From NCBI RefSeq assembly GCF_023684405.1, contig NZ_JAGSOI010000016.1, positions 1 to 41,982 of the forward strand: DNA of 41,982 nt. The letters are read 5' to 3'. The notes beneath the pieces are model-generated. The model was given only the letters and a program-made list of their open reading frames with translations. It was not told where the DNA came from and made no database searches. Made by a program: the position numbers and the translations under genes. The stretch comes from Methanococcoides seepicolus (GTDB lineage Archaea; Halobacteriota; Methanosarcinia; Methanosarcinales; Methanosarcinaceae). This document shows, in pieces, positions 17,493-21,459 of this stretch. Position 1 is the first letter of the stretch, and every line of letters starts with the position of its first letter.

Positions 17493-18293
17493 TCATTCCT
17501 CTTTTTTTGATCCATCAGGTGCATAACGTGCAATGACAATTGCAAAAGCAAATTCCGGTTTAACATCTACTATCTTTATCCGGACGAGATCTCCTTTTTT
17601 AACCTCATCTTGCACAAAGACCACAAAGTCTTCAACAAAGGCTATACCATTGCCCTTAGATCCTATCTTTTTGATGGTGACATCGAACTTATCATCGATC
17701 TTTAAGGGTGCTGTTAGCAATTTCTTCCCGATGACATAGATCTCTGCACTCTCTTGCCTTGAGGCTTTTGGTGAGAATGCACGGGTGTACGTGAAACTGT
17801 CGCGAACTTTGTCCATGTACTCTTTGAACATATCACCCTGAAATACTTTCACAATAAAATGTCCCTTTGGTTTAAGGATCTTCTTTGCACATTCAAGGGC
17901 AGATGTGGTAAGGTCGATGGAACGTGCATGGTCAAGGCTCCAGTTGCCGGAAAGGTTTGGTGCAGCATCACATATAACTACATCAGCGCCTCCTTCACCT
18001 ACCAGTTCTATTATCTTTTTAATTGTTTCGTCAGATGTGATATCCCCTTTGATGGTATCCACACCTTCGATCTCCTTTATGCGGCGAAGGTCAACTCCTA
18101 CTATCTTTCCGCCGGAGATCTTCTTGGCGACTTCCAACCATCCTCCTGGAGCGGCACCCAGGTCCACGATAGTATCGCCTTCTTTGATCACGTCATGTTT
18201 TTCATTGATCTGGAAAAGCTTGTAGGCTGCCCTTGAACGATAGCCTTCGTCCTTTGCTCTCCAATAATAAGTATCTCTTCTATCCCTTGCCAT
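17493..18293 (-). CDS. rlmE: RlmE/FtsJ-type rRNA 2'-O-methyltransferase with TRAM domain
   Basis: This is 266 residues from an ATG with GAGAGGT upstream; the frame is open nine codons further. The SAM site is V-D-L-G-A-A-P-G-G-W. The 2'-O-methyltransferase K-D-K-E tetrad is visible: K in R-A-A-Y-K-L, D in C-D-A-A-P-N, K in F-I-V-K-V-F-Q-G and E in S-A-E-I-Y. The last 65 residues form a TRAM RNA-binding domain, typical of the archaeal form and absent from the E. coli enzyme. The expected target is a uridine in the A-loop of 23S rRNA. It lies 30 bases downstream of the duplicated-domain gene and may be in the same minus-strand operon. Confidence 0.95.
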   Translation of the reverse strand: MARDRRDTYYWRAKDEGYRSRAAYKLFQINEKHDVIKEGDTIVDLGAAPGGWLEVAKKISGGKIVGVDLRRIKEIEGVDTIKGDITSDETIKKIIELVGEGGADVVICDAAPNLSGNWSLDHARSIDLTTSALECAKKILKPKGHFIVKVFQGDMFKEYMDKVRDSFTYTRAFSPKASRQESAEIYVIGKKLLTAPLKIDDKFDVTIKKIGSKGNGIAFVEDFVVFVQDEVKKGDLVRIKIVDVKPEFAFAIVIARYAPDGSKKEE

Positions 18294-18323
18294 GTATATC
18301 TGACCTCTCATCGCATGCAAACA

Positions 18324-19112
18324 TCAAATATCTTGTGCTGTACCAAGGGAATCTATCTGTTTGCTAAGAGCTAATATGTCGTTCTCCATATCTGCAATGC
18401 CGCCTTCGAGCCATGAATCATAATCGTAGTAAACGTTCAGAAGGTCGCTGTATTGTTGTTCAAGTGTCGGGATATCCGGACTCCCTTCCACATTCTCCGA
18501 ACATTTGTCCATATTGTGCTTGAGTTTCGTGAATCTTGCTTTTAGTCTTTCGGAATTTCTCTGTGTGAGCTTTTCCGAATCAACTTCGTTCCTGTCCGGT
18601 TTCAGTATATCCATTACTTCGCTGAGTTCGAATGGATGTTCGGGAAATGCGTTGGGTCCAAGGATATAGAACTCCCTACCCTCTTTCACATTCTCCGAAT
18701 ATTTGTCTATATTGTGCCGGAGTTCTGCGAGTCTTGCTTTTAGTCTTTCGGAATATCTCTGTGTGAGCTTTTCCGAATCAACTTCGCGCTTGTCCAGTTT
18801 CAGTATATCTAATACTTCACTGAGTTCAAATGGATACTCGGGAAATGCATTGGGTCCAAGGATATAGAACTCCATCCCCTCTTCACATTTGTCACATTCT
18901 TCAATTAGTTCTTCTGAAGAGATGGTCTCAAGAAGATGTTCGGAAACAGCTTTTTCACACATTTTCTCAATTTCGTCATGCAAAGGCTCATCTTCATCCC
19001 TTTCATAGGCAAGTTCCTTCACGATGCTGATCACTTCTTCATGAGTTGCTGCACCAAGGGCACCTACGATTCCTTCGAGTTCTTCCGGCTCTATCATGTG
19101 AACATCTCTCAT
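18324..19112 (-). CDS. Acidic protein with a 66-residue tandem duplication, coupled to a Vms1-like gene
   Basis: This is a 262-residue soluble acidic protein of no recognised family. Residues 79-144 and 145-210 are tandem copies agreeing at about 51 of 66 positions. Each begins E-F-Y-I-L-G-P-N-A-F-P-E and continues F-E-L-S-E-V, an S-E-K-L-T-Q-R run and a charged helix. The unit is 198 bases and the DNA copies are close, so the duplication is fairly recent. Residues 1-75 hold two Glu-rich helices, and the C-terminus has a long helix with W-L-E-G-G-I. The start ATG overlaps the stop of the upstream Vms1-like gene (ATGA), which implies coupled translation and a shared function. Its role is unknown; binding the Vms1-like protein or ribosomes is a guess. 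Confidence 0.8.
   Translation of the reverse strand: MRDVHMIEPEELEGIVGALGAATHEEVISIVKELAYERDEDEPLHDEIEKMCEKAVSEHLLETISSEELIEECDKCEEGMEFYILGPNAFPEYPFELSEVLDILKLDKREVDSEKLTQRYSERLKARLAELRHNIDKYSENVKEGREFYILGPNAFPEHPFELSEVMDILKPDRNEVDSEKLTQRNSERLKARFTKLKHNMDKCSENVEGSPDIPTLEQQYSDLLNVYYDYDSWLEGGIADMENDILALSKQIDSLGTAQDI
18483..18878 (-). repeat. Two tandem 198-bp coding repeats
   Basis: Copy one covers 18681-18878 and copy two 18483-18680, head to tail and in frame. Long stretches are identical, for instance across the S-E-K-L-T-Q-R and E-F-Y-I-L-G-P-N segments. Point differences are spread through both. Such repeats can expand or contract by recombination. Confidence 0.9.
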
Positions 19113-20119
19113 AATCTATAACGACGGCAACTAAAAATACTTCTCAGAATATTGCCTGTGTCATGTTTTTCTATCCTTGCGTCAATGTTCCTTTCCATCA
19201 ACGGTATCTCGATATTCATCTCATCCACTATATGGCCGGCAAGGACAATATCGCCGCAGAGGAACATCATATCGATGTCGATCATCGAGCTTGCAAGTAG
19301 ATCTTTCAGTGCACTTCTGACTTTATCTGCGTGGTGCGCAATATCTTCATCCCGAAGCCTCTCAAAACGTCTCTGGCTAAATCCACCTTTTGTGTGTTTT
19401 GCCTTGACACTGCTTCTGATGACCATGTCCTCATCAAAGACGGTCTTATCTGATGTTATTCCTATGAGCGATTCCCCTGCATGTGTTGCAAGTACGCAGA
19501 CGGTCATTTCCCGGTCCAACAGCTTTGTAAGTGGTTCTACATTGAACGATCCGGCAATCTCCAATAAACTTTCGGTTATGGGGGTGGGGGGTACTATTAC
19601 TTCGCATACCATCTTCATGTTGTCGTAAAATAGCACATATCCCGTATTGGAATTTATCTTTTTGAGCAACTGCAATGTGTCCTGGTCGAGATTATTTGTG
19701 AGTTTTCCCTGTATCTCGTTGGCCTGCATCTGTTCATATGTTGTGTATGCAGTGATGAACGAATCGTTGCCGGAAGTTATGGATGCTAACCTTTCGATGT
19801 AAGGTTCGAAAGACGATGGTGCTATCTCTTCAATAAGGGAAAATGAGTTCTCATTCGTTCCTTTGTTCCTGAGCTCTTCAAGTTGGTACGTAAGCGTTTC
19901 TATACGGACATTAGCCTCATTCAGCTTCTGTTCAGCTTCCTGTTTTGCGGCAATGGCTTTTTTTGTATTAGTTTCGTTCTTTTCAAGCCGCTTTTTGTCT
20001 ATCTCCATTTCAAGTAGATGTGACTGTAGCTTCTCTATCTCCTTTTCCAACTTTTCTTTTCCTGAATACCGGCTGAAAAGCGAGTTCAGGTTATCCGCCA
20101 CTTTTTTCTTATCATCCAT
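19109..20119 (-). CDS. Vms1/eRF1-like putative peptidyl-tRNA hydrolase
   Basis: This is 336 residues from an ATG at 20119 (M-D-D-K-K-K); the frame is open 36 codons further upstream but that part looks non-coding. Residues 20-86 are a coiled coil. The rest resembles the archaeal eRF1-domain-2-like family related to Vms1/ANKZF1. The key segment is K-G-G-F-S-Q-R-R-F-E-R-L-R at 244-256, where G-F-S-Q fits the GxxQ catalytic loop that Vms1 uses to cut peptidyl-tRNA on stalled 60S subunits. Known Vms1 proteins release nascent chains during ribosome quality control. The N-terminal coiled coil differs from eukaryotic Vms1, which has a zinc finger. It is coupled by an ATGA overlap to the next gene and divergent from coaBC. 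Confidence 0.8.
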   Translation of the reverse strand: MDDKKKVADNLNSLFSRYSGKEKLEKEIEKLQSHLLEMEIDKKRLEKNETNTKKAIAAKQEAEQKLNEANVRIETLTYQLEELRNKGTNENSFSLIEEIAPSSFEPYIERLASITSGNDSFITAYTTYEQMQANEIQGKLTNNLDQDTLQLLKKINSNTGYVLFYDNMKMVCEVIVPPTPITESLLEIAGSFNVEPLTKLLDREMTVCVLATHAGESLIGITSDKTVFDEDMVIRSSVKAKHTKGGFSQRRFERLRDEDIAHHADKVRSALKDLLASSMIDIDMMFLCGDIVLAGHIVDEMNIEIPLMERNIDARIEKHDTGNILRSIFSCRRYRL

Positions 20120-20214
20120 TTTACTCAAGTTAAGTTCTCCATAAATAAAAAATCTGTCATATCTTCTTGAAACATTCAGTAAGGTACTTATTATTAGAAT
20201 ACAAACTCTATCTG

Positions 20215-21459
20215 ATGAATACTTCACGCCATCCTACTATGTGGATAAAGGGGCAGAAAAGCGCTTCTCTTTCCGGAAAGACAATAGTTCTTGCAGTAAC
20301 GGGCAGTATCGGTGCAGTACGGGTCATAGAACTTGCACGTGAACTTATCCGTAATGGTGCAGAGGTCTATGGTGTGATGAGCGATGCTGCACAGCATATA
20401 ATCCATTCGGATGCATTACATTATGCAACAGGGCATGAAGTGATTACTGACCTTGCTGGCGAAGTCGAACATGTTAAGTTCTGTGGTGCTGAAGGGTGTG
20501 CCGATCTTCTTCTGATAGCACCGGCAACTGCTAACACTATTGGTAAGATGGCATGCGGTGTGGATGACACACCGGTGACTACCTTTGCGACCACTGCCAT
20601 AGGTTCCGGTATTCCGGTAATAGTTGTGCCTGCCATGCACAATTCCATGTATGAACATCCGGCAGTGATGGAAAATGTCGATAAGTTAAAGGGCTGGGAT
20701 ATTTCATTTGTTGGTCCTCATCTCAGTGAGGGTATCGCGAAGATAGCATCGAACGACCAAATAGTACTTGCTGTGGAGCGTGTTCTTGGGGATAGTATCC
20801 TTTCAGGTAAAAAAGTGCTCATTACGAGTGGGGCGACAGCAGAATCCATCGATCCTATCAGAATAATTACCAACCGTTCTTCAGGCAATACTGGCAGGGA
20901 GATCGCACTGGAATTCTATCGCAGGGGTGCAGAGGTTACTGTGGTTCACAGGGGCAATCTCGAGTTTGATGGTGTCAGCGAGATACTTGTGGAAAGTGCC
21001 GGTCAGATGGTGGATGCTACATTAAAGGAACTTGAGCACGGTTATGATATGCTTATCAGTGCGGCAGCGATCTCTGATTATACTATTGATGCCAGGGACA
21101 ATAAGATCAAGTCCGGCGGTGATCTATCATTGAAATTTAGAAGCACCCGAAAACTGATACGCGAGGTGCGTGATGCTTATCCCGATATATCTATAATAGG
21201 TTTTAAGGCAGAGGCATACATTTCTGAAGATGAGCTTATTGCCCGTGCAAAAGATTCGATGAAGGATGCGGATCTGGATATGGTTGTGGCTAATGAGGTT
21301 GGTACCAGCGGCATAGGTACAATTGAGAACGATGTCTACATAATACCTGCTGAAAATGGTGCTATCACTCATATCAGTGGGAACAAAAGACTGATTGCTG
21401 AAGCATTGGCGGATAATATAGAAGAAATGTTGAGGAACCGGGAATTAAATGTCCACTGA
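20215..21459 (+). CDS. coaBC: Bifunctional CoaBC (phosphopantothenoylcysteine synthetase/decarboxylase)
   Basis: This is 414 residues from the ATG at 20215; the frame is open 16 codons upstream, and no ribosome binding site is seen, so a leaderless transcript is possible. Residues 20-190 are the flavin decarboxylase: V-T-G-S-I at 28-32, active-site His in H86-V-K-F, A-P-A-T-A-N-T at 102-108 and P-A-M-H-N-S-M-Y. The C-terminal CoaB half has I-T-S-G-A-T-A-E and R-I-I-T-N-R-S-S-G-N-T-G. It makes 4'-phosphopantetheine from phosphopantothenate, cysteine and a nucleotide. The next gene starts before its stop, linking it to pantoate kinase, an upstream step of the same pathway. Confidence 0.96.
   Translation: MNTSRHPTMWIKGQKSASLSGKTIVLAVTGSIGAVRVIELARELIRNGAEVYGVMSDAAQHIIHSDALHYATGHEVITDLAGEVEHVKFCGAEGCADLLLIAPATANTIGKMACGVDDTPVTTFATTAIGSGIPVIVVPAMHNSMYEHPAVMENVDKLKGWDISFVGPHLSEGIAKIASNDQIVLAVERVLGDSILSGKKVLITSGATAESIDPIRIITNRSSGNTGREIALEFYRRGAEVTVVHRGNLEFDGVSEILVESAGQMVDATLKELEHGYDMLISAAAISDYTIDARDNKIKSGGDLSLKFRSTRKLIREVRDAYPDISIIGFKAEAYISEDELIARAKDSMKDADLDMVVANEVGTSGIGTIENDVYIIPAENGAITHISGNKRLIAEALADNIEEMLRNRELNVH

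Follow-up and report, generated by a model that had tools for sequence, protein, structure and literature searches.

A known family of Vms1-like archaeal release factors in an operon with DUF7109 and rlmE in Methanosarcinaceae

Introduction

Yeast Vms1 and human ANKZF1, the release factor of RQC, carry an eRF1-type RNase H domain with a GxxQ loop. The yeast loop reads GGSQ, in which Q295 and G292 are needed for release; the deletion of S294, giving GGQ, abolishes function (PMC5989216). In 2019, Burroughs and Aravind described an archaeal family, aVLRF-1, that is only distantly related to the eukaryotic one (PMC6514570). They found it in some archaea only; its members have an N-terminal coiled coil, a GGxSQ motif, a conserved Arg after the loop and no C-terminal Pelota domain. 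Prokaryotic VLRF-1 proteins were reported as standalone. We found no report of biochemistry on any archaeal VLRF-1 in the open-access literature.

Here we follow up a Methanococcoides locus in which a Vms1-like gene, a gene for an acidic protein and an rRNA methyltransferase gene lie in a row. The original prediction suggested that the first two may be an undescribed quality-control pair. The Vms1-like release factor of that proposal stands, although as a member of the family described in 2019, while the pair as a dedicated module is not supported. The window protein has these features of aVLRF-1 and is likewise distributed over a subset of archaea. Unlike the standalone genes reported for prokaryotes, its gene shares an operon with DUF7109 and rlmE.

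Results

Gene order at the locus

The window, which is the whole stretch of 41,982 nucleotides that we analysed, comes from a Methanococcoides contig. Its closest named relatives are M. alaskense and Methanococcoides MAGs, with 93-96% protein identity. The minus strand carries aVLRF-1, then DUF7109, then rlmE, as follows.

19109..20119, minus strand: aVLRF-1 (Vms1-like archaeal release factor), 336 aa; Pfam acVLRF1 and eRF1_2
18324..19112, minus strand: DUF7109 protein, 262 aa, acidic; PF23421, E 1.3e-32
17493..18320, minus strand: RlmE/FtsJ 23S rRNA 2'-O-methyltransferase with a C-terminal TRAM; Pfam FtsJ and TRAM
20167..21459, plus strand: coaBC, divergent, upstream of aVLRF-1; TIGR00521, 1.4e-106

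Comparing gene orders, we find that the cluster is bounded on its left by coaBC in many Methanosarcinaceae, a conserved arrangement. The stop codon of aVLRF-1 (TGA) overlaps the ATG of the DUF7109 ORF as ATGA, as had been noticed. The homologues of DUF7109 start at residue 6 of the window protein (MIEPEEL), so the true start may lie ~11 nt past the aVLRF-1 stop, without any overlap. Among the relatives, the spacing of the two genes varies between -4 and +54 nt. Thus, the ATGA overlap is not a conserved property of the locus.

The third gene is the rRNA methyltransferase noted after the acidic protein. Its own start (MARDRRD) lies a few codons inside the ORF 18320..17493. The protein has the FtsJ domain (5.9e-56) in common with RlmE/FtsJ, the Um2552 methyltransferase, and adds a TRAM domain (3.1e-8). 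Against TIGR00438 it scores 1.5e-74, which is below the equivalog cut-off, as is the case in all 71 genomes of the family. In two other families, f17 and f32, the rlmE gene that follows DUF7109 is short (194-206 aa; loci L104, L105, L106 and L130-L132) and apparently lacks TRAM; the one locus of these that we checked with Pfam, L104 in f17, encodes 194 aa with FtsJ alone.

The Vms1-like protein belongs to aVLRF-1 and keeps the loop Gln

Performing family searches, we find that the Vms1-like protein matches Pfam acVLRF1 at 1e-13 (52.1 bits, cut-off 27.1) and eRF1_2 at 2.5e-6, above its cut-off. NCBIfam gave a partial match to aRF1_eRF1, with acVLRF1 below its cut-off, and the profile of the protein matches aRF1/eRF1 among solved structures. 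The layout consists of a coiled coil at about residues 2-85, a middle domain and the RNase H-fold eRF1 domain 2. Residues 2-85 are predicted to be helical (2-47 and 53-85), with a local pLDDT of ~55-80 in a model that is poor elsewhere, and the profile weakly matches the coiled coils of keratin and GCN4. As to a stop-codon-binding domain between the coiled coil and the catalytic domain, the aRF1 model covers residues 129-277, but Pfam eRF1 domain 1 is unmatched, and the structure model is poor in that region. Pfam gave no eRF1_3 match, the C-terminal Pelota/eRF1 domain 3 being absent, and the chain ends ~87 residues past the loop Gln. The coiled coil and the GxxQ-type loop named in the original prediction are thus both present. 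The RNase H domain and the loop are common to Vms1 and ANKZF1, while the Rei1 zinc finger, ankyrin repeats and VIM of Vms1 are missing.

The loop reads KGGFSQRRFERLR and is located as follows.

19367..19390, minus strand: catalytic-loop codons K244-R251 (KGGFSQRR; Gln249); alignment A1

In alignment A1, which holds 19 aVLRF-1 homologues, K244, G245, G246, S248, Q249, R251 and F252 are invariant. The loss of this Gln among homologues would have spoken against the original prediction; we find the GGxSQ motif in 67/67 full-length homologues from methanogens and Halobacteria, the window copy being GGFSQ. Aligned to the archaeal aRF1 structures, the window loop reads GGFSQRR versus GGQSQRR. Hence, F or W takes the place of the canonical GGQ glutamine in aVLRF-1, and the conserved Gln stands two residues further on.

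This replacement of the canonical Gln would fit an inactive or regulatory binder of the A site, similar to Dom34, rather than a release factor. However, GGxSQ is invariant, and the comparable Gln of yeast Vms1 is the Q295 whose requirement, like the effect of the S294 deletion, is described above (PMC5989216). We consider an inactive binder very unlikely; judging from its sequence, aVLRF-1 is probably a peptidyl-tRNA hydrolase. The same genome encodes a separate aRF1 candidate, Pelota and NEMF/Rqc2, which marks aVLRF-1 as an extra factor.

In genome G000, Pelota and a NEMF/Rqc2 homologue adjoin on the same strand (contig C126:63614-66674, loci L176 and L177). This pair may be an archaeal stalled-ribosome operon, apart from the aVLRF-1 locus.

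The acidic protein is a DUF7109 member with a recent duplication

The protein encoded after aVLRF-1 was thought to belong to no known family. In fact, it matches Pfam DUF7109 (PF23421) over its full length with 113.4 bits (cut-off 27). It is acidic as described, with a pI of 4.43 and 64 D+E against 29 K+R. It differs from PF23421 by the tandem duplication of a 66-aa middle segment.

18675..18872, minus strand: repeat copy 1, 66 aa, residues 81-146, DUF7109 middle segment; identity to copy 2
18477..18674, minus strand: repeat copy 2, 66 aa, residues 147-212, in-frame tandem duplication; absent from other relatives

The copies are identical at 50/66 aa (76%) and at 87% of 198 nt, far above chance, so the two 66-residue repeats are real. 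The duplication is found only in the 262-aa DUF7109 proteins of four genomes, all Methanococcoides (G000, G002, G003 and G009). In the relative that comes next, G006, the protein has 196 aa and a single copy, and neither G006 nor any other relative examined has the duplication. The dN/dS values between orthologues were 0.13-0.60 for copy 1 and 0.20-0.59 for copy 2, the higher values resting on few changes. Since both copies are mostly constrained, the duplication looks tolerated or mildly useful, but it is recent and lineage-specific. As the repeat is limited to four close relatives, we no longer regard it as what defines the partner.

When DUF7109 was searched by sequence against solved structures, no credible match emerged (the best was CheA, E 0.021), and we found no open-access literature that names the family. 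The AlphaFold models of both this protein and aVLRF-1, built on shallow alignments of four sequences, were poor (mean pLDDT values of 43.3 and 40.2). PF23421 matches are strongest in Halobacteria, and the methanogen versions score below the haloarchaeal ones. The unrooted DUF7109 tree splits Halobacteria from the methanogen-side groups, a pattern in which vertical descent and transfer are not separable.

aVLRF-1 and DUF7109 are linked only in the window's family

We surveyed 295 genomes of the phylum; the counts are raw and ignore kinship. A genome was scored as aVLRF-1-positive when it held a profile match beyond the canonical aRF1. Many genomes gave weak extra matches to the aVLRF-1 profile, which we took as canonical aRF1 and left out of the count. 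The window's family, f1, is Methanosarcinaceae, which is certain from Methanococcoides. The Halobacteria label (f13, f18, f23, f24, f31, f33 and f36) was inferred from a Haloferax control, from long open frames of high GC content and from how strongly DUF7109 matched.

DUF7109 is present in 87/295 genomes. If DUF7109 and aVLRF-1 formed a dedicated two-component module for nascent-chain release, the two genes should be found together. In Methanosarcinaceae, they are adjacent on the same strand, within the spacing given above, in all 23 of the 23 surveyed genomes that hold both. Moreover, 48 of the 49 DUF7109-bearing genomes of Halobacteria also hold aVLRF-1, as might be expected if the two shared a role without being linked. 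However, aVLRF-1 is present in 71 of the 87 DUF7109 genomes and absent from 16, namely seven Methanosarcinaceae (genera g8 and g14), two of f2, five of f17, one of f32 and one of f36. Conversely, aVLRF-1 occurs without DUF7109 in the genera g5, g7 and g11 and in the families f6, f10 (many members), f20 and f27. The linkage is also missing in Halobacteria: DUF7109 was near none of 18 aVLRF-1 loci (~4 kb flanks), and neither aVLRF-1 nor rlmE was near any of 30 DUF7109 loci (1.5 kb flanks, tblastn with the window proteins, of modest sensitivity).

The co-occurrence and linkage across archaea expected from the original prediction are therefore not seen, as the adjacency of the two genes is confined to the window's family. 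Since the genes are kept singly within that family and are unlinked in Halobacteria, they are not an obligate release pair, and a dedicated new rescue module of the two is quite unlikely.

rlmE is the most widely kept methanogen-side neighbour of DUF7109

Checking the gene neighbours, we find rlmE directly after DUF7109 on the same strand in 35/36 genomes of the window's family; in the 36th (G021) the locus is near a contig end. The order DUF7109-rlmE is kept in the seven genomes of the family that lack aVLRF-1. It is also found in f17 (5/5) and f32 (1/1), both without aVLRF-1. Of its two neighbours, rlmE is the one that DUF7109 keeps more constantly. Where a genome of the window's family has no DUF7109, aVLRF-1 and rlmE keep their order, at times with an inserted gene, and no DUF7109 remnants were detected between the two (best E 0.77).

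Alternatively, the operon could be mostly incidental, with three growth-linked genes on one promoter and an unrelated function for DUF7109. Its context does vary by lineage, with an oxidoreductase-like pair in f2 and a NUDIX gene adjoining it in one haloarchaeal locus, and the context of aVLRF-1 varies likewise. As rlmE is not the neighbour of DUF7109 in f2 (4 loci) or in Halobacteria (0/30 loci, 1.5 kb flanks), the DUF7109-rlmE link is not universal. Against an incidental arrangement, the order DUF7109-rlmE is kept in f1, f17 and f32, whose DUF7109 proteins form separate groups in the tree, and this exceeds the usual incidental proximity. We regard a mostly incidental operon as rather doubtful.

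We also noted other neighbours of the two genes. In f2, all four loci (L100, L101, L112 and L113) place DUF7109 immediately before a gene pair resembling indolepyruvate ferredoxin oxidoreductase, which we named from its sequence. Outside the window's family, aVLRF-1 has other neighbours related to the ribosome, in line with a ribosome-themed operon. In f5 (L027, L029 and L032), it comes directly after genes for an RNase PH subunit of the exosome and for proteins similar to eL43 and Brix, an rRNA-processing operon in which RNase PH is confirmed by Pfam and the eL43 and Brix types are our reading. In f27, it adjoins PUA-domain and ZPR1 genes. In Halobacteria (L156-L173), aVLRF-1 often comes after DUF5802 and before DUF1611 and mandelate-racemase-like genes.

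Discussion

We favour, with a probability of roughly 55%, a ribosome-themed operon aVLRF-1 - DUF7109 - rlmE that is specific to Methanosarcinaceae and whose products would act at the large ribosomal subunit; there, aVLRF-1 would carry out release and DUF7109 would aid RlmE or 50S maturation. In this operon, aVLRF-1, as a member of the known VLRF-1 clade, would hydrolyse peptidyl-tRNA independently of the codon. We propose that its RNase H-fold domain brings the loop residue Gln249 (GGFSQ) to the peptidyl transferase centre when a 50S:peptidyl-tRNA complex has stalled, and that aVLRF-1 then frees the nascent chain. RlmE, going by its family, would 2'-O-methylate the A-loop uridine near the end of the A-site tRNA. 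DUF7109 may assist RlmE or the maturation of 50S, perhaps by serving as a small adaptor that is acidic and helical, and the 66-aa duplication would merely lengthen its middle region in one Methanococcoides lineage.

The most widely kept methanogen-side link of DUF7109 is rlmE, and this points to assistance to RlmE or 50S maturation as its most likely role. Judging from gene order, DUF7109 is more likely such an accessory than an obligate release partner. A shared operon of the three genes is sensible and does not require a complex. A more far-reaching scheme would make DUF7109 an archaeal A-site factor of the large subunit, which aids the A-loop maturation by RlmE and, in Methanosarcinaceae, couples it to release by aVLRF-1, thereby clearing defective or unmethylated 50S subunits with peptidyl-tRNA. 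We see this scheme as a long shot.

In summary, the locus holds a release factor from a family described before, within an operon of modest interest. Whereas aVLRF-1 had been reported, the link between DUF7109 and rlmE appears not to have been. If aVLRF-1 is active, archaea would gain a Vms1-type release step beside Pelota and NEMF. The DUF7109-rlmE pair offers a first concrete functional lead for DUF7109, and it is the part worth keeping.
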